From a virus: a stretch of 20,895 nucleotides of DNA. Position 1 is the stretch's first letter; each line of letters begins with the position of its first letter. This document shows, in pieces, positions 1,781 to 20,880 of this stretch. The DNA is taken from the IMG/VR virus record IMGVR_UViG_3300008266_008495, positions 1 through 20,895 of that record; one strand, written 5' to 3'. Both the position numbers and the translations under genes were made by a program. The notes beneath the pieces were generated by a model that was given only the letters and a program-made list of their open reading frames with translations, ran no database searches and was not told the origin of the DNA.

Positions 1781-2453
1781 TTTTATAGTTTATATTCATA
1801 TACGACATGATATAAATGAACCGTTTTATGTTGGGAAAGGAATACCCAAACGAGATAGATCAAAATATGGTAGAAATCAATATTGGCATAATATAGTAAA
1901 TAAAAATAATGGTGTATTTGAATCTAAAATATTATTTGAAGGATTAAGTGAAGAAGAAGCATTATTAAAAGAAAGAGAAATAGAATTGGATTTAAAAAAT
2001 AAAGGTTATATATTAGCTAATATAGCTGAATGTGGTGTTAAAGCTGGTACTACTGGAATGAAACACTCTGAAGAATCTAAAAGAAAAATATCTGAAGGAT
2101 TAAAAGGTCATGTATCACCTAATAAAGGTAAAAAGCAATCTAAAGAGACATGTGACAAGAAGAGTAAGTCTATGTTAGGTAAAAAAGTTAGATTAGGTGT
2201 AAAAGATTCTGATGAAACTAGAAAAAAGAAAAGTGAAGCTTTTAAAGGAAGAATATATAGTGAAGAAAGTAAACAAAAGAAAAATGAAAAATTAAAAGAT
2301 AAAAACCTTTATGTCTTTTATAATTTATTAAATGATGAAAAGTTTAAAGGAACTAGGAGAGAATTTCAAGATAAATTTAATTTGAACAGTGGAAGGTTAA
2401 GCCATTTAATAAATAATAAAATTTCTAAATATAAAAATTGGATAAAAATATGA
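1734..2453 (+). CDS. GIY-YIG homing endonuclease with NUMOD3 repeats
   Basis: This is a free-standing homing endonuclease of the phage GIY-YIG type. Numbered from ATG 1734 (239 aa), the nuclease domain spans about residues 17-100: FIVYIHIR, then FYVGKG, a catalytic-type Arg region (RDRSKYGRNQYW), and a Glu in LKEREIEL. Four NUMOD3-like DNA-binding repeats follow at about 108-190 (GMKHSEESKRKISEGLKG is the first). The C-terminus (about 193-239) has a helix-turn-helix look (TRREFQDKFNLNSGRLSHL). The frame is open back to ATG 1668, but those 22 extra residues are an out-of-frame reading of the 47-aa gene. The stop TGA overlaps the ATG of the oxidoreductase C-half (ATGA at 2450-2453), coupling their translation. 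It appears intact. It is the likely agent, or a passenger, of the split. Confidence 0.88.
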   Translation: MKNLNKNITKRKQNNNFIVYIHIRHDINEPFYVGKGIPKRDRSKYGRNQYWHNIVNKNNGVFESKILFEGLSEEEALLKEREIELDLKNKGYILANIAECGVKAGTTGMKHSEESKRKISEGLKGHVSPNKGKKQSKETCDKKSKSMLGKKVRLGVKDSDETRKKKSEAFKGRIYSEESKQKKNEKLKDKNLYVFYNLLNDEKFKGTRREFQDKFNLNSGRLSHLINNKISKYKNWIKI

Positions 2454-3247
2454 GAAAAATTAAATTTGATACATGCATAGTAGGTACAGGTAAAGCAGGA
2501 ATAGACTTCTCAGCTAAATTAGCTCAAAAGTACAATTTACCTACCGAAGTCAAGTCGACCCAGATTGGAGTGAGATTTGAAAGCCCACAAAAATACTTCC
2601 AAAAATTAATTGATATTAGCTATGATTTTAAACTATATCAAAAATATGATAACGTGTCGTTAAGATCATTTTGTACTAATAATAACGCGGCTTACGTTGC
2701 AGTAGAAGAAACATATGGTGATATTACTTATAATGGTCATGCTAAGAAAGGTAAGGAATTTGAAAATCAAATGACCAATTTTGGTATATTAATGGAAATT
2801 AAGGGTATTGAAGATCCATTTGAATGGAGTAGAGATGTAGTACAAAAATGCCAAGCGGGATTAACTAACACAGATAATCCAATTGATTTCAAAACAACAG
2901 GAATATATTACTCTCCATCTAGAACCCCAGGATTAACATCTGAAGGAACTATAGTATCATCAATATCAGTTCCAAATTTAGATACGTTTAAAGAAGCATT
3001 TGGTGAGTATGCTAGTTATATACTTGATTTCATTGACCAAATGAATAAAGTGTTTAAGTTTGGTGATGATTATGGAATTTATATTCCTGAGGTAAAATAT
3101 TTAAGTCCTGAACCATTAGTAAATTATAATGATTTATCATTAACTACATATTCTAATGTACACTTTGTAGGAGATGCTTTAAGTGCTCGTGGTATTACTG
3201 TTAGTGGAGCACAAGGTATATATGTTGCTGAGTCATTACTTTCCTAA
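2450..3247 (+). CDS. FAD-dependent oxidoreductase, C-terminal half (split gene, COG2509-like)
   Basis: This ORF of 265 aa continues the oxidoreductase begun at 418-936. It opens with a strand-GxGxxG-like turn (DTCIVGTGKAGIDFSAKL), where COG2509 relatives have a GRSG-type segment. It then has the family features IGVRFESP (39-46), SLRSFCTNN (70-78), NGHAKKGK (95-102) and TNFGILM (109-115). It ends with the FAD-closing signature VGDALSARGITVSGAQG. ATG 2450 overlaps the endonuclease TGA by two bases. A TTG at 2438 would add four residues and is less likely. The N-terminal flavin-binding fold is missing from this ORF, so activity would need association with the N-half. No degradation is seen: the frame is open for the whole length. 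Confidence 0.82.
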   Translation: MRKIKFDTCIVGTGKAGIDFSAKLAQKYNLPTEVKSTQIGVRFESPQKYFQKLIDISYDFKLYQKYDNVSLRSFCTNNNAAYVAVEETYGDITYNGHAKKGKEFENQMTNFGILMEIKGIEDPFEWSRDVVQKCQAGLTNTDNPIDFKTTGIYYSPSRTPGLTSEGTIVSSISVPNLDTFKEAFGEYASYILDFIDQMNKVFKFGDDYGIYIPEVKYLSPEPLVNYNDLSLTTYSNVHFVGDALSARGITVSGAQGIYVAESLLS

Positions 3248-3258: not shown

Positions 3259-3780
3259 ATGGCTTCACTCCGTATTCTTATTAAAGAATTAATTGAAGAT
3301 TTTATACTCCAAGAAATTGGGGAAGCCAATATTGAGCCTTTTCAATACTCAAAATTATCAGACGTTAAGTATTCTTTTGATTTTGATTATAAAGAAGGAC
3401 ATTTTAATGTTGAAGTTGATTTTGAAAAATTAGATGATATCTATAAGTCATATTATTTTTCTAAAGTACCTAATTTTAAAAATAAAATATTTTATAATAT
3501 AGCTTTTAGTGTTAATGGAGATCAATATAAAGCTTCATCAACAGACCTAAAAACATTATTAAGAATAATGACCACTTTATCTATTATTATTAAAGATTTT
3601 ATCTCAAATATAGATCCTGATGGATTATATATTGAAGCGACAGATAAAGGAGATGACTTAATAAGAGGTAAATATCAAAAATCAGCTACATACCAAGCAT
3701 ATTTAGATAAACAATTAGAAAAATTAACAAATTATAAAGTATATACTAATAGGAATGGGTTAAACATCGCGAAAGTATAA
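3259..3780 (+). CDS. Phage protein with putative capsid-targeting N-terminus, 173 aa
   Basis: No family is recognised. The N-terminus MASLRILIKELIEDFILQE forms an amphipathic helix ending in L-Q-E (residues 17-19), a match to the prohead protease consensus (L/I)-x-E. The rest looks like an alpha/beta domain with alternating hydrophobic strands (YSFDFDYKEGHFNVEVDFEK) and a basic C-terminus. The helix begins at the first Met, which supports ATG 3259. The gene follows the oxidoreductase C-half by 11 nt, with the TATTTATA motif in the gap. Inference: an internal head protein processed after Glu19. Confidence 0.7.
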   Translation: MASLRILIKELIEDFILQEIGEANIEPFQYSKLSDVKYSFDFDYKEGHFNVEVDFEKLDDIYKSYYFSKVPNFKNKIFYNIAFSVNGDQYKASSTDLKTLLRIMTTLSIIIKDFISNIDPDGLYIEATDKGDDLIRGKYQKSATYQAYLDKQLEKLTNYKVYTNRNGLNIAKV

Positions 3781-3817: not shown

Positions 3818-4405
3818 ATGGGAAATTTAGTTCAATTTATTAGATCAATGGTTCAAGAGGAACTATCTGAAATGGCAGCTCCTTCATTTTCAATCAAAGT
3901 GCTTGATCAAGATAAAGCAGAAAGACTTAAAAAATTACACTCAGGCCATTGGGTAGGCAAGTTAATGGACTTAATTATTAAGTCTGGTGAAAATGGTATT
4001 ACTCGTGGTGAAGCAGCTAATGCTTTAGACATCAATCCTATGAAACTTAATGATGAGATTAAAGCTCTTCAAGACAGTGGTATTGTATCTAGAGGTAGAT
4101 TAACACCAGATAAACCAGAAAAAACACCAGGCCAACGTGGTAGAAAATCTAGTGATAAAAGTAGAGCAGGTGTTGTTAGAACTTTATTTCAGAACTTTAA
4201 AGACAATCCTGATTTCACTCCAAGTGAAGATGATGTAACCTATGATATACCTAAAGGTTTAGGAACTGAAAAATTAGGCGATGCTGATGTTGCTAAGATT
4301 AAGAGTTCTGCTTTAGGATTAACTAAACGTGGAAGACCAAAAGTTACACAAGCTGAATCATTACATGAAATGTATTTACGTTTACAAGGTAAACTAAATG
4401 GCTAA
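3818..4405 (+). CDS. Winged-helix / AT-hook protein with putative capsid-targeting N-terminus
   Basis: This 195-aa protein has three parts. Residues 1-18 (MGNLVQFIRSMVQEELSE) are a short amphipathic helix ending in L-S-E, as expected for a cleavable capsid-targeting peptide. Residues about 45-95 read as a winged helix-turn-helix: GITRGEAANALDINPMKLNDE followed by a wing (LQDSGIVSRGRL). The second half has a near-canonical AT-hook (KRGRPK, 170-175) and a weaker one (QRGRKS, 106-111). It is therefore probably a DNA-binding protein carried in the head or acting on phage DNA; this is inference. The last 8 nt overlap the next gene. The same architecture recurs at 10265-11023. Confidence 0.72.
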   Translation: MGNLVQFIRSMVQEELSEMAAPSFSIKVLDQDKAERLKKLHSGHWVGKLMDLIIKSGENGITRGEAANALDINPMKLNDEIKALQDSGIVSRGRLTPDKPEKTPGQRGRKSSDKSRAGVVRTLFQNFKDNPDFTPSEDDVTYDIPKGLGTEKLGDADVAKIKSSALGLTKRGRPKVTQAESLHEMYLRLQGKLNG

Positions 4406-10264: not shown

Positions 10265-11023
10265 ATGAAACGTAAAGACCTATATAGTTATATCCGTGAG
10301 GAAATTATAGAAACACTATCTGAAATAGATGTTGATAAAGCAGCTGGAGCTGTAGTTGTTAAAAAAGGAACACCAGCATCTGCCCCACCAGAAATCAAAA
10401 AATATACAACTCAAGGTATTGATGTTAATGTGGTAGCTGAAGAAGATATTGACGAAGCTCGTAAAGCAGGTGGTTACAAAATAGGTGACACAGGTAAATT
10501 TGCTGAAGCTAAAGAATTATATGGCGCGGGTCTTTATGCTGATGTATTAAAAGCAATTGAAGAAGCAGGTGAGGATGGTCTTACTCAAAAAGATTTAGGA
10601 GCTAAATTAGGTAAAGGTGATGGTTCATCTCTTAATTTTATTTTAAATAAATTTAAAGCTATTGGAGTATTAGGTGGAGGTAAATTAGCAGCGGCTGAAA
10701 AACCATCTAAAGTAGCTCCTGAGGTTGAACCTGAAGCAGATGATGAAGACACAACTCCTGAAGAAAAACCACAAGTCACTACTGATAAAGAAATTAAAAA
10801 AATAGCAGGTGATATTGATACTGGAAAAAGCAGTGAGCTTAATAAAGCAATTAATGTTATTAAAAATGTAACTGACAAACTCCAAAATATGAAGTCTGGA
10901 TCAAAAGAATATAATGACAAAATGATCGCATTAAGACAATATATTGGTAAAAATAAAAATCTTCTTAGAGGACAAGATATTAGTTTATTGACTAAGAAAC
11001 TTATAGGAGGTGGAGAAATATAA
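10265..11023 (+). CDS. Winged-helix protein next to terL; putative capsid-targeted protein or small terminase
   Basis: This 252-aa protein begins with MKRKDLYSYIREEIIETLSE, an amphipathic helix ending in L-S-E (18-20), as in the capsid-targeting peptides of this window. Residues about 88-140 form a winged-helix candidate (DGLTQKDLGAKLGKGDGSSL then FKAIGVLGGGKL). An acidic Pro/Glu linker (150-175) leads to a helical C-terminus (176-250). Position immediately before terL, with a 1-nt overlap, is where T4 has the small terminase gp16, so TerS is an alternative. Against that, the leader peptide and resemblance to the protein at 3818 suggest a packaged DNA-binding protein. It carries the Shine-Dalgarno for terL in its last codons. 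Confidence 0.72.
   Translation: MKRKDLYSYIREEIIETLSEIDVDKAAGAVVVKKGTPASAPPEIKKYTTQGIDVNVVAEEDIDEARKAGGYKIGDTGKFAEAKELYGAGLYADVLKAIEEAGEDGLTQKDLGAKLGKGDGSSLNFILNKFKAIGVLGGGKLAAAEKPSKVAPEVEPEADDEDTTPEEKPQVTTDKEIKKIAGDIDTGKSSELNKAINVIKNVTDKLQNMKSGSKEYNDKMIALRQYIGKNKNLLRGQDISLLTKKLIGGGEI
11005..11012 (+). promoter_or_regulatory. Strong Shine-Dalgarno site for terL
   Basis: AGGAGGTG is a full-length anti-16S match 10 nt before ATG 11023. It lies within the last codons (GGG) of the upstream gene, fixes the terL start and couples its translation to the upstream gene. It contrasts with the A-rich, SD-poor leaders of several other genes here. Confidence 0.75.
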
Positions 11024-14515: not shown

Positions 14516-15373
14516 ATGCTTATAAAACATTCAAAATTTAAGAATACAGGTATTCTCTTTGAATTATTAGTAAGGCAGATAACATCCGACACTTTATCGG
14601 GTAAATCCTCAGAAGCCACGGGTATTCTTAAAAAGTTTTTCAGTAAAACTGAATTAGGACGCGAATATAAATTATATGAAAGTTTATTAAAGCGTACTAA
14701 TTTAACTGAAGGGAAAGCTGAAATTATAATCAATACTATCTTAGAAAGCTCCAAGCAATTAAACCGCTCAGCTCTTAAAAGACAAAAGTATAATTTAATT
14801 AATGAAATTAAAAAATATTATAATTTAGAGGACTTTTTTAAAAGTAAATTACCTAACTATAAGGCTCAAGCCTCAATCTATACTTTAATTGAAGCCTATA
14901 ATAGTGAGAAAAAAGTGTTTCATGAGCAAACAATTTCAAATAAATTAGTTTTACTTGAACATTTAACTTCATTAACATCAAAACCAAAAGAATCTAATGA
15001 TGAAGTAATAAATGAATTTTCTACTTATGACAAAGATACTCGTATCTTAACATATAAAATTTTATTAGACAAATTCAACAGTAAATACTCAGACTTTAGT
15101 AATACTAAAAAAACAATTCTTAAAGAGTTTATTAATAGTGTAGATAACACAAGTAAACTTAAAGAATTTTATAATACTAAAATTGGTGATTTCAAAAATG
15201 AACTTGTTAAATTAAATAAAAAAACTAAAAATGAAGTTACCAAAATTAAAATCAATGAGGTAACTAATTTATTACTTGAGTTAGGAAAAAATGATAAAGT
15301 AACTAATGATAATATAGTTAATTTATTACAATACTGTGATTTAATTGAAGAACTTAAATCAGTAAATGGATAA
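14516..15373 (+). CDS. Conserved T4-like phage protein between portal and protease, 285 aa
   Basis: The product opens HSKFKNTGILFELLVRQI followed by TSDTL and a KKFFSKTELGREYKLYE segment. I recall this N-terminal pattern (KFKNTGxLFELLVRQI) from hypothetical proteins near the capsid genes of marine T4-like phages. The whole protein is helical and Lys/Asn/Glu-rich with many coiled-coil-like stretches. In T4 this position holds the small core proteins gp67 and gp68, so a prohead core or head-completion role is plausible, but I see no direct homology to them. The 3' end overlaps the next gene by 8 nt. Confidence 0.72.
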   Translation: MLIKHSKFKNTGILFELLVRQITSDTLSGKSSEATGILKKFFSKTELGREYKLYESLLKRTNLTEGKAEIIINTILESSKQLNRSALKRQKYNLINEIKKYYNLEDFFKSKLPNYKAQASIYTLIEAYNSEKKVFHEQTISNKLVLLEHLTSLTSKPKESNDEVINEFSTYDKDTRILTYKILLDKFNSKYSDFSNTKKTILKEFINSVDNTSKLKEFYNTKIGDFKNELVKLNKKTKNEVTKIKINEVTNLLLELGKNDKVTNDNIVNLLQYCDLIEELKSVNG

Positions 15374-15890
15374 ACCTAATTTAAATAAACTTAAAGAAGT
15401 AGTACTCAAAAAGTTAAAAGAAATGAGTGCTACTGGCGCTGGAGCAGGTGCTGGTACTTTCACTCCTGGCTCTGGAGCTCAATATGCTACTCCTTATGCT
15501 TTTAATCCTAATAAAAAAGCTAAAGGAGCCCAAAATATTTATTATTATAAGTTAGGTTGGAAACCAGTAAATGCTAAAAAGCTTCATAAAGCTTCTAAAA
15601 CTATAGATCATAAAGATTTATGGAAAAAGAAATTAGAAGAAGAAGCAACTGACACTTACATTAATAATCTTAACTTAACTGATCCTGCTTTATCACAATT
15701 TATAGAAAAAAGAGTAAGTGATTTTGATAAAATAGAAGATAAATTAAACACTTTACTCCCTCTATTAAAACAAGCTAAAGCACAAACAATGGAGTACTAT
15801 AAAAATTCTCCAGACTTTAAAATACAGTATGGTACCGATTTAGCAGTTGATTATTTAGACGACATCATTAAACTCTTCAATAAAAAATGA
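15366..15890 (+). CDS. Putative prohead/internal protein with capsid-targeting N-terminus, 174 aa
   Basis: The protein begins with a basic amphipathic helix (MDKPNLNKLKEVVLKKLKE) ending in L-K-E at 17-19, a good site for the prohead protease. Directly after it comes a flexible Gly/Ala run (TGAGAGAGTFTPGSGAQYAT, 23-42), then an aromatic segment (AQNIYYYKLGWKPVN) and a helical C-terminal half. The design, leader then cleavage site then flexible linker, suits an internal head or prohead core protein. It overlaps the previous gene by 8 nt and the next by 4 nt (ATGA), inside the portal-protease interval. Confidence 0.72.
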   Translation: MDKPNLNKLKEVVLKKLKEMSATGAGAGAGTFTPGSGAQYATPYAFNPNKKAKGAQNIYYYKLGWKPVNAKKLHKASKTIDHKDLWKKKLEEEATDTYINNLNLTDPALSQFIEKRVSDFDKIEDKLNTLLPLLKQAKAQTMEYYKNSPDFKIQYGTDLAVDYLDDIIKLFNKK

Positions 15891-17422
15891 GAACACTACA
15901 AGAACAATATAACGCCATTAAAAATGGTAACGGAAATAAAGCTCAATTCTTAAAACAAGCTAGACATTTGTTTCCTCAATATGTGAATCAATACTCTGAT
16001 TTTGACACAGCCTCGGGTGTATTAAAATCTAAACAAATCATTAGTGAAGCAGCAGGTGGTGTTGTTTCTAAAGGATTTGATATTTGGGATTGGAAGAAAA
16101 TTTTAGCAGAAGAGACTAAAGCAACTGAAAAAGAAACATCTAAAGAAGTATTAGATGCTCAAAAACACGCTTATAATAACTCAGACATGAAAAACGCTGA
16201 TAACGTTAATTTTAACGAGATCATGAAAGGATTTTATGCTGAATTAAAAGACGAGAAGAATAAAGAAAAAAGTGGTGATGAACTTAAAGCTATAGTTGTT
16301 AAAAACTTAGCTAAAGATCCTTTATATTATACTAAAAATGGTGAATTTGGAACTAAAGGAGTTGGATATACAACTGAAGCTCCTGGTTTAGGCGAACCTA
16401 AAGAACCAAAAGGTAAACATAAATCATCAGGTTATGGTGATTTAAAAGAAAATAAAGAAAAAAGAGAATTATCATTACAATTAATTGATAAAGAAGATAA
16501 AAAGGGATTAGCTCTTTATAAGAATACTAAAGATCAAAACGATTTATATTATTATGATGGAAAAGTATTATATAGTATTAGAGATGATGGATCAAAAGGA
16601 CCTTCTGTTAGAATGAGTTTATTTAATATAACTGGATTAAGAGAAGGAAAAATTAAAGAAAACACTGATATTTTAGATTATTATTTAAGTGTTATTGATT
16701 CTAATAATATGAGTAAGGACGAAGCGTTTGCTTATCTAGAAAATGAAGATCTCCCAGGAACTCAAATTGACACAATTATGAACTATGCTTTTCCTATAAA
16801 GGCGGATAAAGATATTCCATCTCAAGGAATGACTGAAGCAGAACAAAAACTTCGTTCTTTAGTTCGTAATATTATTAAAGAAGAACTTAATAAATATGGA
16901 GAAGAGAAGGAAGATTGGAACGATCAAACTGGAGATTATGATGAAGCTAATTTAAGTGAAAATAATGAATCCCCGGTTAAAAAAGGTGATATTCTCTATC
17001 ATAAAAATAGTGATTCTACACTTGAAGTAACAAATATTGAACCCAAAAGTATTTCTATGAAAGTAATCAAAGTTTCAGATAAAACCCCAACTTACATTAA
17101 AGTAGGACAAAAATCTAAAACTAGTTATAGTGCTATAGGTAAAACTTATATTAAAAAAGAAATAAATTTAAACGAAGGATCAATCCCTGCTAAAGCAGAA
17201 AAAATAACAGATAAAGTAATTAAATGGTATGAAAATCATCCTAATCCTAAAATGAAAGAGTTACTTAATTCTGTTGAGAAAAATATAGAAAATATGCTTT
17301 CTAAAACTGTAGGTAAAAATGCTATTAGTGTTGAAGAATTTGAAAAAATAGTTAAATCCAAATACGGAAAACCATTTGAAGATCCAAACTATAGCGTATT
17401 TAAAAAAGCGACAAATAAATAA
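15887..17422 (+). CDS. Large hydrophilic prohead/virion candidate, 511 aa
   Basis: No characterised family is recognised. The N-terminus (TLQEQYNAIKNGNGNKAQFL then KQARHLFPQYVNQY) appears to be a compact helical domain and is followed by possible protease sites I-S-E (52-54, next residues AAGG) and L-A-E (73-75). A long Lys/Glu-rich region follows. At residues 315-336 there is an internal copy of the leader-like helix (MTEAEQKLRSLVRNIIKEEL), then an acidic linker and a C-terminal domain with a small beta region (GDILYHKNSDSTLEVTNIEP) and helices. It looks like two or more modules joined by cleavable linkers. Its position between portal and protease supports a role in head assembly. ATGA overlap with the gene before; one base separates its stop from the next start. 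Confidence 0.72.
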   Translation: MRTLQEQYNAIKNGNGNKAQFLKQARHLFPQYVNQYSDFDTASGVLKSKQIISEAAGGVVSKGFDIWDWKKILAEETKATEKETSKEVLDAQKHAYNNSDMKNADNVNFNEIMKGFYAELKDEKNKEKSGDELKAIVVKNLAKDPLYYTKNGEFGTKGVGYTTEAPGLGEPKEPKGKHKSSGYGDLKENKEKRELSLQLIDKEDKKGLALYKNTKDQNDLYYYDGKVLYSIRDDGSKGPSVRMSLFNITGLREGKIKENTDILDYYLSVIDSNNMSKDEAFAYLENEDLPGTQIDTIMNYAFPIKADKDIPSQGMTEAEQKLRSLVRNIIKEELNKYGEEKEDWNDQTGDYDEANLSENNESPVKKGDILYHKNSDSTLEVTNIEPKSISMKVIKVSDKTPTYIKVGQKSKTSYSAIGKTYIKKEINLNEGSIPAKAEKITDKVIKWYENHPNPKMKELLNSVEKNIENMLSKTVGKNAISVEEFEKIVKSKYGKPFEDPNYSVFKKATNK

Positions 17423-17423
17423 T

Positions 17424-18035
17424 ATGAAATCCTTATTAATAGAGACTCGCCCATTTAGTATATCACCAGTTGCTCTTACTGAAGGTAAGAGTGTGAATGG
17501 TAATCCTTTAGTTGAAGGTATTCTAGCTACTTGTGAAGTAAAAAACGGAAATGGTAGATACTATGCTAAAGATTTATGGGAAAGAGAAATTAATAAGTAT
17601 ATGACTTTAGTTAAAGAAAGAAGAGCATGTGGTGAATTAGATCATCCTGACTCTCAAGTAATTAACTTAAAAAATGTATCACATAATATATCAAGCATTT
17701 GGTGGGACGGAGATAACATTATGGGTAAAATAGAAATTTTACCAACTCCATCAGGTAATATTTTAACAGCTTTAATAGGATCAGGTATTAAAGTAGGGGT
17801 TTCATCTCGCGGAATGGGAAGCCTAAAACAAGTAGGTGAAGTATTAGAAGTACAAGATGATTTTGAACTATTATGTTGGGATTTTGTAAGTACACCTTCA
17901 AATCCAGGCTCATTTATGACTCCATTAAATGAAGGTCAATCATCTCCTATTAATCCTTATGGTAGAGTAAATTCTATAGTGACAGAAATTTTATGTGCTA
18001 ACCATATTAAGCGTATTTCCAAATTAAAAACTTAA
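17424..18035 (+). CDS. Prohead core protease (T4 gp21-like, peptidase S77)
   Basis: This is the serine protease that matures the prohead by cutting scaffold, capsid and internal proteins after (L/I)-x-E. ATG 17424 gives 203 aa (T4 gp21 is 212); an upstream in-frame ATG at 17376 lies inside the preceding gene and is rejected. Catalytic candidates are His74 in GELDHPD, Ser127/128 in VGVSSRGMGS and Asp153 in CWDFVSTPSNPG. Its own sequence has consensus sites near both ends: L-T-E at 18-20 (before GKSVNG) and L-N-E at 168-170 (before GQSS). Self-trimming to about residues 21-170 is thus expected. It is followed after 6 nt by the scaffold gene. Confidence 0.93.
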   Translation: MKSLLIETRPFSISPVALTEGKSVNGNPLVEGILATCEVKNGNGRYYAKDLWEREINKYMTLVKERRACGELDHPDSQVINLKNVSHNISSIWWDGDNIMGKIEILPTPSGNILTALIGSGIKVGVSSRGMGSLKQVGEVLEVQDDFELLCWDFVSTPSNPGSFMTPLNEGQSSPINPYGRVNSIVTEILCANHIKRISKLKT

Positions 18036-18041
18036 GGAAAA

Positions 18042-19163
18042 ATGGCAACAAACAGAGATTTGCTTAAAGAAGCAATCGCAGATGCTAAAGCTGTTAAAGA
18101 AACTGCTATCGCAAATGCAAAAGCTGCTTTAGAAGAAGCATTTACTCCCTACCTCAAGGAAAAATTATCTGCTAAATTACAAGAAATGGAAGATAATGAA
18201 ACTGAGTTAGAAGAAAGTGAAGTTTCTGAAGTAGAAAAAGAAAAGAAAATGGAAGAAGCAAAGAAAGAAGAAGACATGACCGAAGAAGTTTCTTTAGATG
18301 AACTATTAGCTGAATTAGAAGAATCTGATGACATGGACGAAACGTACATGGAAGAAGATGTTTATGAAGCTAAAGGTGAAGAAGAAGAAATGTCAATCGA
18401 AGATATGTCTGAAGATGATCTTAAATCTTTCATTGAAGATGTAATTAAAGACATGGTATCAGCTGGTGAATTAGAAGCTGGCGAAGAAGGTGAAGAAGAA
18501 GTTGATATGGATATGGAAGCAGGCGCTGAAGAAGAGCTTGACGAAGTTTTCAATATTGATGAACTCTTAGCTGAAATGGAAAAAGAAGAATCTCTAGAAG
18601 AGAAAAAAGAAAAAGAAAAAATGGAAGAAATTGAAATTGGCTCTGATGTTTATTTAAATCAAGCTGAAACAATCCTAGCTGTTCTTAGTACTCTTGGTAT
18701 AGTAGGCGCAGCCGCTCTAGCCACAGATGAAATCAGAACTGGTTTAGCTAATGCTCTTAAAAAGGGTAAAAAAGCAGCAGCTGATTTTATTAAAGGTTTA
18801 AAAGGTAAAACTGCTGAAACTCAAGAAATGGAAGAACAATTAAATGAACTTCGTAATGAATTAAATGAAGTAAATTTATTGAACGCTAAACTTCTTTACA
18901 CTAACAAAATCTTCCGCAACAAGTCTTTAACTGAATCACAAAAGGTAAAGGTTTTAACTGCGTTTGATAAAGCAACAACTAAAAAAGAAGTTGAACTTGT
19001 TTATGAAACTTTAGTAGAAGGCTTAAAAACAACTACAAAAGCTCCTATTAAAGAATCATTAGGTTCTGCCTCTAAAGTATTAGGTGGTGCTACATCAAAA
19101 CCAATCATTGAGAACGATGCTTTCGCTCGTATGCGTGAGTTAGCGTTTGGTGGTAACAAATAA
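18042..19163 (+). CDS. Prohead scaffold / core protein (T4 gp22-like)
   Basis: The internal scaffold assembles with the capsid protein and is then digested. Residues 1-40 are a helix (MATNRDLLKEAIADAKAVKE) with an L-K-E site at 8-10. Residues about 45-200 are extremely acidic (long Glu/Asp runs with Met). The C-terminal third (about 262-325) holds the recognisable gp22-type coiled coil: ELRNELNEVNLLNAKLLYTN then SLTESQKVKVLTAFDKA. Unusually, a hydrophobic stretch (TILAVLSTLGIVGAAALA, 210-227) followed by a cationic helix (LANALKKGKKAAADFIKGLK, 235-254) is inserted before the coiled coil. AAGGA four nt before ATG serves as RBS. Directly between protease and major capsid genes, as in T4. Confidence 0.9.
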   Translation: MATNRDLLKEAIADAKAVKETAIANAKAALEEAFTPYLKEKLSAKLQEMEDNETELEESEVSEVEKEKKMEEAKKEEDMTEEVSLDELLAELEESDDMDETYMEEDVYEAKGEEEEMSIEDMSEDDLKSFIEDVIKDMVSAGELEAGEEGEEEVDMDMEAGAEEELDEVFNIDELLAEMEKEESLEEKKEKEKMEEIEIGSDVYLNQAETILAVLSTLGIVGAAALATDEIRTGLANALKKGKKAAADFIKGLKGKTAETQEMEEQLNELRNELNEVNLLNAKLLYTNKIFRNKSLTESQKVKVLTAFDKATTKKEVELVYETLVEGLKTTTKAPIKESLGSASKVLGGATSKPIIENDAFARMRELAFGGNK

Positions 19164-19209: not shown

Positions 19210-20880
19210 ATGAGTTCAATTCAATCATTACTCGAATCAGCTAATCCCTGGAAATCGCTTCAAGGCGATGCTGCCAAATTAGCTTCCAAGTGGTCCAAGA
19301 CGGGCTTACTTGAAGGCTTTGGTTCAGAGGTTGAGCGCAATAATATGGCTCTTATCCTTGAAAATCAAGCAAAACAATTAGTAGTAGAAGCTAGCCAAAC
19401 TGGTGCTTCTCCAACCGCAGGTACATTTACTGTAGGTCAATCTGAAAACTGGGCTGGTATTGCTCTTCCATTAGTACGTAAAGTATTTGGACAAATCGCC
19501 GCAAAAGAATTTGTTAGTGTACAGCCAATGAATTTACCTTCTGGTCTTGTATTCTTCCTTGACTTCCAATATGGAACTACTAAGAATCCATTCACTTCTG
19601 GTGATTCTATGTATGGTGCTCGTAATCCATTAGGTCAATTCCCATTCCAAACTACTGGCACTACTGGTGGTTTATATGGGGCTGGTCGTTTTGCTTACTC
19701 CACTAACCAATTTACTGCTTCTGCTGTAACAGTTACAGCAGCTTCAGCTTCTTGGGCTGAAGTAGGATTTGATTCTGATTTATCAGCATCAGCAGCTGCT
19801 GGTAGTATTAAGAAATTAACTATAGGTACTGCTTCATTATCAGCTTTTGATCCAGATGCAGTTCGTGGATTTATTATTACTTCAGGTTCAGTGTCTGTAG
19901 CTGATAATCTTTCCGCATTCCATGCTTATAATTATACTGCTGGTCAGATCAATTTCTTTGTTACGGCTTCTACTGCTGAAATCCCAACTTTAACAACAGC
20001 ATTTACTGTCTTCTATAATAAAATTACAGCTGATAATAATCGTGGTGATTTTGAAGATGGACAAACATTTAGTACAAATACTGCGGTTGGTGCTACAGGT
20101 ACTACAATCTCTATTCCTGAAGTTAATATCAAGATGCAATCTCAAGCTATTGTTGCTAAGACTAAAAAGTTAAAAGCAGTGTGGACGCCTGAATTCGCTC
20201 AAGATTTGAACGCTTACCAGAATATTGATGCTGAAGCTGAATTAACTAACATCATGAGCGAATACATTTCTATGGAAATTGACCTCGAAATTCTTGATAT
20301 GTTAATTGAAGATGCTGCTGCTGGTACTGAATACTGGTCTGTAAATAATAACACTTTCTTTGATGCTGCTACTTCAACTTTAGTTGAAAGATCAGTAGCT
20401 GGCGGTGGATATTACAACACTCAAGGCGGTTGGTTCCAAACTCTTGGAACTAAAATGCAGAAGATTTCTAACAAGATTCACCAATTAACCCTCCGTGGTG
20501 GTGCAAACTTCTTAGTATGTTCTCCTACCGTAGCTACTGTACTCGAATCAATCCCAGGTTTTGCCGCTAACACTAATGGTGATGCTGCTAACATGGAATA
20601 TGCTTTCGGTGTTCAGAAAGTTGGTGCTATCAATAACCGCTATACCGTTTATAAGAATCCATATATGACTGAAAACGTTATTTTAATGGGATTCCGTGGT
20701 AAGCAGTTCCTTGAGTCTGGTGCCGTATTCGCTCCATATATTCCGTTGATCATGACTCCTCTTGTGTACGATCCAAATACCTTCACTCCACGTAAAGGTT
20801 TGATGACTCGTTACGCTAAGAAGATGTTACGTCCGGAATTCTATGGTAAGATCTATGTTAGTGGTTTAAATACCCTCTAA
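19210..20880 (+). CDS. Major capsid protein (T4 gp23-like)
   Basis: This protein forms the hexamers of the head shell. The 556-aa product aligns with gp23 features: an N-terminal delta region (NPWKSLQGDAAKL; RNNMALILENQAK), a cleavage site at V-V-E60 before ASQTG (T4 cuts after Glu65), then VGQSENWAGIALPLVRKVFG and FVSVQPMNLPSGLVFFLDFQYG in two parts (76-95, 101-122). After a Ser/Thr/Ala-rich insertion (about 165-295) the core resumes with KLKAVWTPEFAQDLNAYQNI and IMSEYISMEIDLEIL. It ends APYIPLIMTPLVYDP and TRYAKKMLRPEFYG. Codon use here has more C-ending codons (TTC, AAC, ATC) than neighbouring genes, as expected for the most abundant virion protein. Confidence 0.95.
   Translation: MSSIQSLLESANPWKSLQGDAAKLASKWSKTGLLEGFGSEVERNNMALILENQAKQLVVEASQTGASPTAGTFTVGQSENWAGIALPLVRKVFGQIAAKEFVSVQPMNLPSGLVFFLDFQYGTTKNPFTSGDSMYGARNPLGQFPFQTTGTTGGLYGAGRFAYSTNQFTASAVTVTAASASWAEVGFDSDLSASAAAGSIKKLTIGTASLSAFDPDAVRGFIITSGSVSVADNLSAFHAYNYTAGQINFFVTASTAEIPTLTTAFTVFYNKITADNNRGDFEDGQTFSTNTAVGATGTTISIPEVNIKMQSQAIVAKTKKLKAVWTPEFAQDLNAYQNIDAEAELTNIMSEYISMEIDLEILDMLIEDAAAGTEYWSVNNNTFFDAATSTLVERSVAGGGYYNTQGGWFQTLGTKMQKISNKIHQLTLRGGANFLVCSPTVATVLESIPGFAANTNGDAANMEYAFGVQKVGAINNRYTVYKNPYMTENVILMGFRGKQFLESGAVFAPYIPLIMTPLVYDPNTFTPRKGLMTRYAKKMLRPEFYGKIYVSGLNTL

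Follow-up and report, generated by a model that had tools for sequence, protein, structure and literature searches.

A hydrophobic and cationic insert at an exchangeable site in a gp22-like phage scaffold protein: a candidate cargo peptide

Why should the acidic scaffold protein of a phage head carry a strongly hydrophobic helix followed directly by a lysine-rich one? The question is raised by a virus sequence of 20,895 nucleotides (IMG/VR record IMGVR_UViG_3300008266_008495), the whole of which is referred to here as the window. Scaffolds are commonly regarded as disposable. The initial annotation of the window saw in this segment either a membrane-active peptide that might be released on injection, or an anchor holding the core to a membrane. 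Our analysis supports that interpretation in part, and the finding is wider, there being many exchangeable inserts, of which this segment is one.

The scaffold protein and its insert

The window contains a T4-like head gene cluster, comprising a large terminase, a gp20-like portal, three more ORFs, and the scaffold gene flanked by those of an S77 prohead protease and a gp23-like capsid protein (Table 1). T4 gp22 similarly lies between the protease and capsid genes, is acidic and has many L/I/V-x-E motifs. The window scaffold is acidic, mostly helical in a low-confidence model, and contains 22 [LIV]xE motifs in its 373 amino acids. The direct similarity between the two proteins is weak and local, with a pairwise BLASTP E value of 5.7e-4 in a charged helical stretch, and profile scores are also weak. 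In curated families there is no PHROG match to the scaffold at E 0.1 and there are two sub-threshold, unrelated Pfam matches only, and a search of solved structures gave no match explaining the protein.

Table 1. Positions of the scaffold gene, its parts and neighboring head genes in the window
Feature	Position	Strand	Basis
Second core protein; variable C-terminal stretch behind LNE (about 17177-17419)	15887..17422	+	relative L210_2825 with hydrophobic cassette
S77 prohead protease (gp21-like), presumed cutter	17424..18035	+	PF03420 E 7.1e-30; phrog_207 E 1e-57
gp22-like scaffold (prohead core) protein of 373 aa, which carries the insert	18042..19163	+	flanked by genes for S77 prohead protease and gp23-like capsid protein
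Conserved N-terminal helix, residues 1-50	18042..18191	+	
Conserved helix EDMSEDDLKSFIEDVIKDMVSAGELEA, residues 120-146	18399..18479	+	
Closest [LIV]xE motif on the upstream side, LEE, residues 185-187, predicted protease site	18594..18602	+	motif only
Fragment predicted to be freed, residues 188-269, 82 aa, longest part of the scaffold lacking [LIV]xE	18603..18848	+	predicted
Hydrophobic helix of insert, residues 209-228	18666..18725	+	hydropathy, AlphaFold2
Lys-rich amphipathic part of insert, residues 229-256, net +5	18726..18809	+	
Downstream [LIV]xE motif, LNE, residues 267-269, predicted protease site	18840..18848	+	motif only
Conserved C-terminal domain, residues 270-368	18849..19145	+	
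gp23-like major capsid protein; predicted cut after E60 (QLVVE|AS)	19210..20880	+	

Nucleotides 18666-18804 of the window encode residues 209-254 of the scaffold. Here the Kyte-Doolittle mean reaches a maximum of 2.31 over 17 residues and 1.99 over 19 residues, compared with a highest 17-residue mean of 0.63 in the rest of the protein. The value of 2.31 is rare in shuffled sequences, both of the whole protein (p = 0.0075) and of residues 51-261 (p = 0.0011). The maximum helical moment within residues 229-254 is 0.61, against 0.34 +/- 0.11 after shuffling (p = 0.014), and the context is acidic, residues 51-199 having a net charge of -56. AlphaFold2 places helices at residues 207-225, 229-241 and 243-292 with low confidence (mean pLDDT 64, pTM 0.27). 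Hydropathy, charge and helical moment thus confirm the annotated succession of a hydrophobic segment and a Lys-rich amphipathic helix within an acidic protein, and at the level of sequence a membrane-length hydrophobic helix adjoins a cationic amphipathic one.

No match to the insert turned up in 50,697 phage records, and a Pfam scan of the whole scaffold gave no match that explains it. An iterated profile of the insert recovers L001, L002, L003 and L006 only; a wider kinship with L043, L052, L074 and L080 was seen by eye and is not claimed. A Pfam scan of the inserts of ten relatives gave sub-threshold matches only. Two identities were set aside: BrkB for the L041 insert, the best of these matches (E 0.0022, below the BrkB cut-off), and SieB for that of L045 (E 0.11).

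Two further features of the window were noticed. A nucleotide-binding oxidoreductase-like gene is seemingly split, with a GIY-YIG-type homing endonuclease-like ORF between its halves (418-936, 1668-2453 and 2438-3247; by eye). Several ORFs (3259-3780, 3818-4405, 10265-11023 and 15366-15890) have at their start a short amphipathic helix whose last residues are L-x-E (e.g. LVQFIRSMVQEELSE) and which resembles a capsid-targeting sequence; the pattern was derived from these same ORFs, so that their match to it is no independent test. In other core proteins, helices of this sort lie upstream of variable stretches.

Variation and exchange at the scaffold site

Relatives were collected from a viral-contig search (35) and a profile search (the best 80 of 546), and ten from genome contigs and two phage records were added. 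Twelve partial scaffold ORFs were set aside, five of which were restored. From 121 loci, 112 distinct variable regions were obtained after merging those that are identical. Three blocks are conserved in the scaffolds, corresponding to the N-terminal 50 residues, the helix at about 120-146 and the C-terminal domain at 270-368. The second and third of these blocks flank a site whose content differs greatly from scaffold to scaffold.

A hydrophobic segment, defined by a 17-residue mean hydropathy of at least 1.68 (the next value down being 1.21), is present in 25 of the 112 variable regions, always between the same conserved parts; since these regions include the best 80 of 546 relatives, the fraction describes the sample and not nature. 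The 87 others in that sample, again including the best 80 of 546, have no comparable segment. Nor does T4 gp22 have a hydrophobic insert, its best 17-residue mean being 0.88. The view that the segment is a part of the normal gp22 fold therefore fails, and the annotated contrast between the insert and the rest of the scaffold is upheld. In the regions compared, the hydrophobic insert is no part of the normal scaffold.

All 25 carriers have a positively charged 30-residue window somewhere in the variable region. In most of them a Gly/Ala-rich hydrophobic helix is followed by a Lys-rich stretch, and this same architecture recurs in differing sequences. What the non-carriers have at the same site is an acidic linker with nothing added, Lys-rich peptides of polar character, or domains some 100 residues long (two copies in L016). 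In L016, L047 and L049, entire insert modules are found in two similar copies per scaffold.

The distribution of the hydrophobic inserts was compared with a capsid tree of the 94 loci whose capsid protein exceeds 350 aa, which holds 20 of the 25 carriers and counts L053, L094, L066 and L042 as non-carriers despite their weaker hydrophobic or amphipathic inserts. The hydrophobic label requires 19 changes for these 20 carriers among 94 loci, compared with a shuffled mean of 18.4 (413 of 500 shuffles as low). The carriers are thus unclustered, indicating that the insert is gained or lost faster than capsid lineages split.

Pairs of near relatives point in the same direction. The scaffolds of L108 and L088 are 96.1% identical in C-domain DNA and 92.2% in N-domain DNA, yet their inserts are unrelated, and the same is true of L066 and L049 (92.9% and 96.7%). 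The window and L002 are 91% identical in the C-domain, with inserts that are 44% identical over 50 aligned residues. The opposite pattern occurs in L073 and L112, with 76% identity in the inserts and 60% in the C-domains, although the contrast in DNA is small (0.719 vs 0.690). The sister loci L055 and L053 have inserts of families A and B, respectively, and the sisters L054 and L094 have A and B again. Across L055/L054 and L053/L094 the DNA identity of the A and B inserts is 0.67 and 0.66, compared with 0.74-0.78 for the scaffolds. The inserts being less alike than the scaffolds, either the exchanges took place long ago or the inserts change rapidly, and a recent exchange between these lineages is unsupported by DNA identity. 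Taken over the sequences compared, exchange of cassettes at the scaffold site is well supported, and we consider it very probable.

Insert modules in other proteins

The hydrophobic family A is found in scaffolds and also in two other proteins, L125_655 and L210_2825. The former, of 338 aa and without scaffold domains, is unmatched in 50,697 phage records. Over 138 bases its family A module shares 82.6% DNA identity with the insert of the L054 scaffold. The protein contains three modules in a row, each of which occurs singly in scaffolds: one matches L058, L110 and L168, another L083, L096, L098 and L154, and family A is present in L128, L132 and L047. Relatives of L125_655 have in common the N-terminus, a KVSELKAKI helix and the C-terminus, and differ in the middle modules. 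L210_2825, whose gene lies behind a portal and two further ORFs, matches the second core protein of the window and has a family A module at its end, where the frame runs off the contig so that an assembly error is possible. A polar module (core WNxxNNP...KVGQST) was found, among the loci compared, in 35 distinct contexts outside scaffolds and in 10 distinct ones within them.

A family of proteins from L215-L223 also has conserved ends and a variable middle built of modules that are found in scaffolds. The Lys/Arg-rich module GAKNGKKKQDMKxRRDES of L125_655 occurs again in L226 (1033-1669), where the neighboring genes do not look T4-like by eye.

These distributions bear on what the insert is. 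The strongest sceptical reading is that the site accepts any in-frame sequence, with the insert as neutral filler within a disordered linker that is removed by the protease. The variable region is indeed hypervariable, ranging from 81 to 443 residues (partial ORFs included, in the sample that takes in the best 80 of 546). Between the window and L002 the insert has dN 0.535 and dS 0.695, compared with 0.045 and 0.402 in the C-domain, and in T4 most core peptides leave the prohead (excerpts of PMC9026906). However, filler would not be expected to recur as families common to several proteins and phages, nor to be duplicated as whole modules, nor to arrive at a hydrophobic helix followed by a Lys-rich stretch in different sequences. 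In three family A pairs dN/dS is 0.16-0.26, although it is 0.5 to ~1 in other pairs. We regard neutral filler as unlikely.

The anchor proposed by the initial annotation fares less well than its suggestion of a released peptide. The hydrophobic helix would tether the scaffold core to the inner membrane while the prohead is being assembled, and be destroyed later. T4 heads begin at the inner membrane through gp20 and YidC (excerpts of PMC9026906), and the length and 19-residue hydropathy of the helix are sufficient to span a membrane. Yet most variable regions in the sample have no such segment, near relatives gain or lose it, many of the alternatives at the site are polar, and family A occurs in proteins that are not scaffolds. 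An anchor is conceivable for single phages, but a fixed anchor is less likely than cargo and we think it improbable; an insert that is one of many exchangeable ones, with family A outside scaffolds, favors release as cargo.

A role in packing, in which cationic inserts neutralize the acidic core or condense DNA and the hydrophobic helix is an oligomerization element, draws on the fact that cationic inserts are common in the sample, 73 of the 112 variable regions (including the best 80 of 546) having a 30-residue window of net charge of at least +2, but this too seems improbable, as it leaves unexplained the hydrophobic segments, the free exchange among near-identical capsids and the 39 regions of that sample with no cationic window.

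Protease motifs and a possible cargo role

The T4 protease gp21 cuts after L/I-x-E (excerpts of PMC9026906). T4 gp23 loses 65 N-terminal residues (excerpts of PMC9958956), and these end in LTE. At the place matching this cut, nearly all the capsid proteins of the clade examined have Q-[LI]-[VI]-x-E, and V was therefore also accepted at the first position of the motif, giving [LIV]xE.

Motifs were counted around 24 hydrophobic segments, L006 being left out as a near copy of L003. There are 40 [LIV]xE motifs in the 35 residues upstream of these segments, compared with 25.7 +/- 4.0 in shuffled sequences, and none of 3000 shuffles gave as many. A motif lies within 25 residues upstream in 19 of the 24 inserts (shuffled 12.8), and the other five have none in that stretch; in the window LEE is about 22 residues upstream of the hydrophobic stretch. 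Inside the inserts there are 10 motifs vs 24.8 in shuffled sequences, a depletion that arises mostly from the clustering of hydrophobic residues, and the cationic parts alone have 8 vs 13.0 +/- 3.1 (p = 0.07). The arrangement of motifs suggests that the insert is probably freed by the prohead protease. Its likeness to a membrane-active peptide holds for the adjoining hydrophobic and cationic helices at its center, but not for the complete predicted fragment, which has a net charge of -3 due to its acidic ends, the core alone being cationic.

Digestion of scaffolds, retention of fragments and injection of internal proteins are all already known. Excerpts of PMC9958956 describe T4 gp22 as the major core protein, present in about 580 copies and cut to peptides, and a table in the review PMC9026906 gives the number of 2.5-kDa gp22 fragments in a mature T4 head as 115, in agreement with the annotated statement that such fragments stay there. 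The T4 internal proteins IPI, IPII, IPIII and Alt are core cargo cut by the prohead protease, non-essential or partly so, diverse between phages and injected, and IPI inhibits a host restriction enzyme (excerpts of PMC9958956 and PMC9026906). These are products of separate genes with an N-terminal targeting peptide, whereas the candidate cargo of the window lies inside a scaffold and other proteins; there is no N-terminal capsid-targeting sequence directly before the window insert, which is internal to the scaffold. The ejection proteins of SPN3US and phiKZ are likewise head proteins that a gp21-related protease cuts after a short Glu-ending motif (excerpts of PMC9026906), but as far as abstracts and one legend describe them they are full-size proteins and not exchangeable peptides in a scaffold. 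In the parts of the open-access literature searched, including PMC9958956, PMC9026906 and PMC3037559, no exchangeable payload modules inside a scaffold or shared among core proteins are described.

We propose to read the segment as an exchangeable cassette of cargo that is held by the scaffold, freed by the protease, and perhaps retained in part and injected, a reading whose prospects we consider evenly balanced. The cassette would belong to a large collection of short peptide modules, which occupy an exchangeable site in the scaffold and other head-core proteins. The scaffold would bring many copies into the prohead, and the prohead protease would cut the flanking [LIV]-x-E sites, freeing the cassette as the core is digested. 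Some copies would then be kept in the head and reach the cell together with the DNA; retention and injection are speculative, and perhaps somewhat doubtful. The hydrophobic, Lys-tailed type might insert into or across the inner membrane, where it could exclude rival phages, alter the membrane potential or help the DNA to enter. For such modules a target in the membrane is the obvious supposition, and membrane activity is put forward speculatively, with similar reserve. We offer only as a tentative and rather unlikely extension that a protease-delimited pool of payloads might be shared through recombination by the scaffold, the second core protein and a third, polyprotein-like protein, with the scaffold as the high-copy delivery vehicle and the hydrophobic modules as injected membrane effectors against hosts or rival phages.

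If the cargo proposal is correct, each head could bring into the cell many copies of an effector whose coding sequence is part of a structural gene. Injected peptides of this kind would make up an entire class that has escaped notice for want of genes of their own, and the cassettes would then constitute a list of candidate effectors.

The cargo idea can be tested directly, since one cultured phage has its cassette in duplicate. The scaffold of this phage, Flavobacterium phage vB_FspM_immuto, is the same protein (L120 7035-8273), annotated as a DNA polymerase phi-like protein. Within it a cationic module is present in tandem as two near-identical copies, one lying behind VNE and the other behind LEE.
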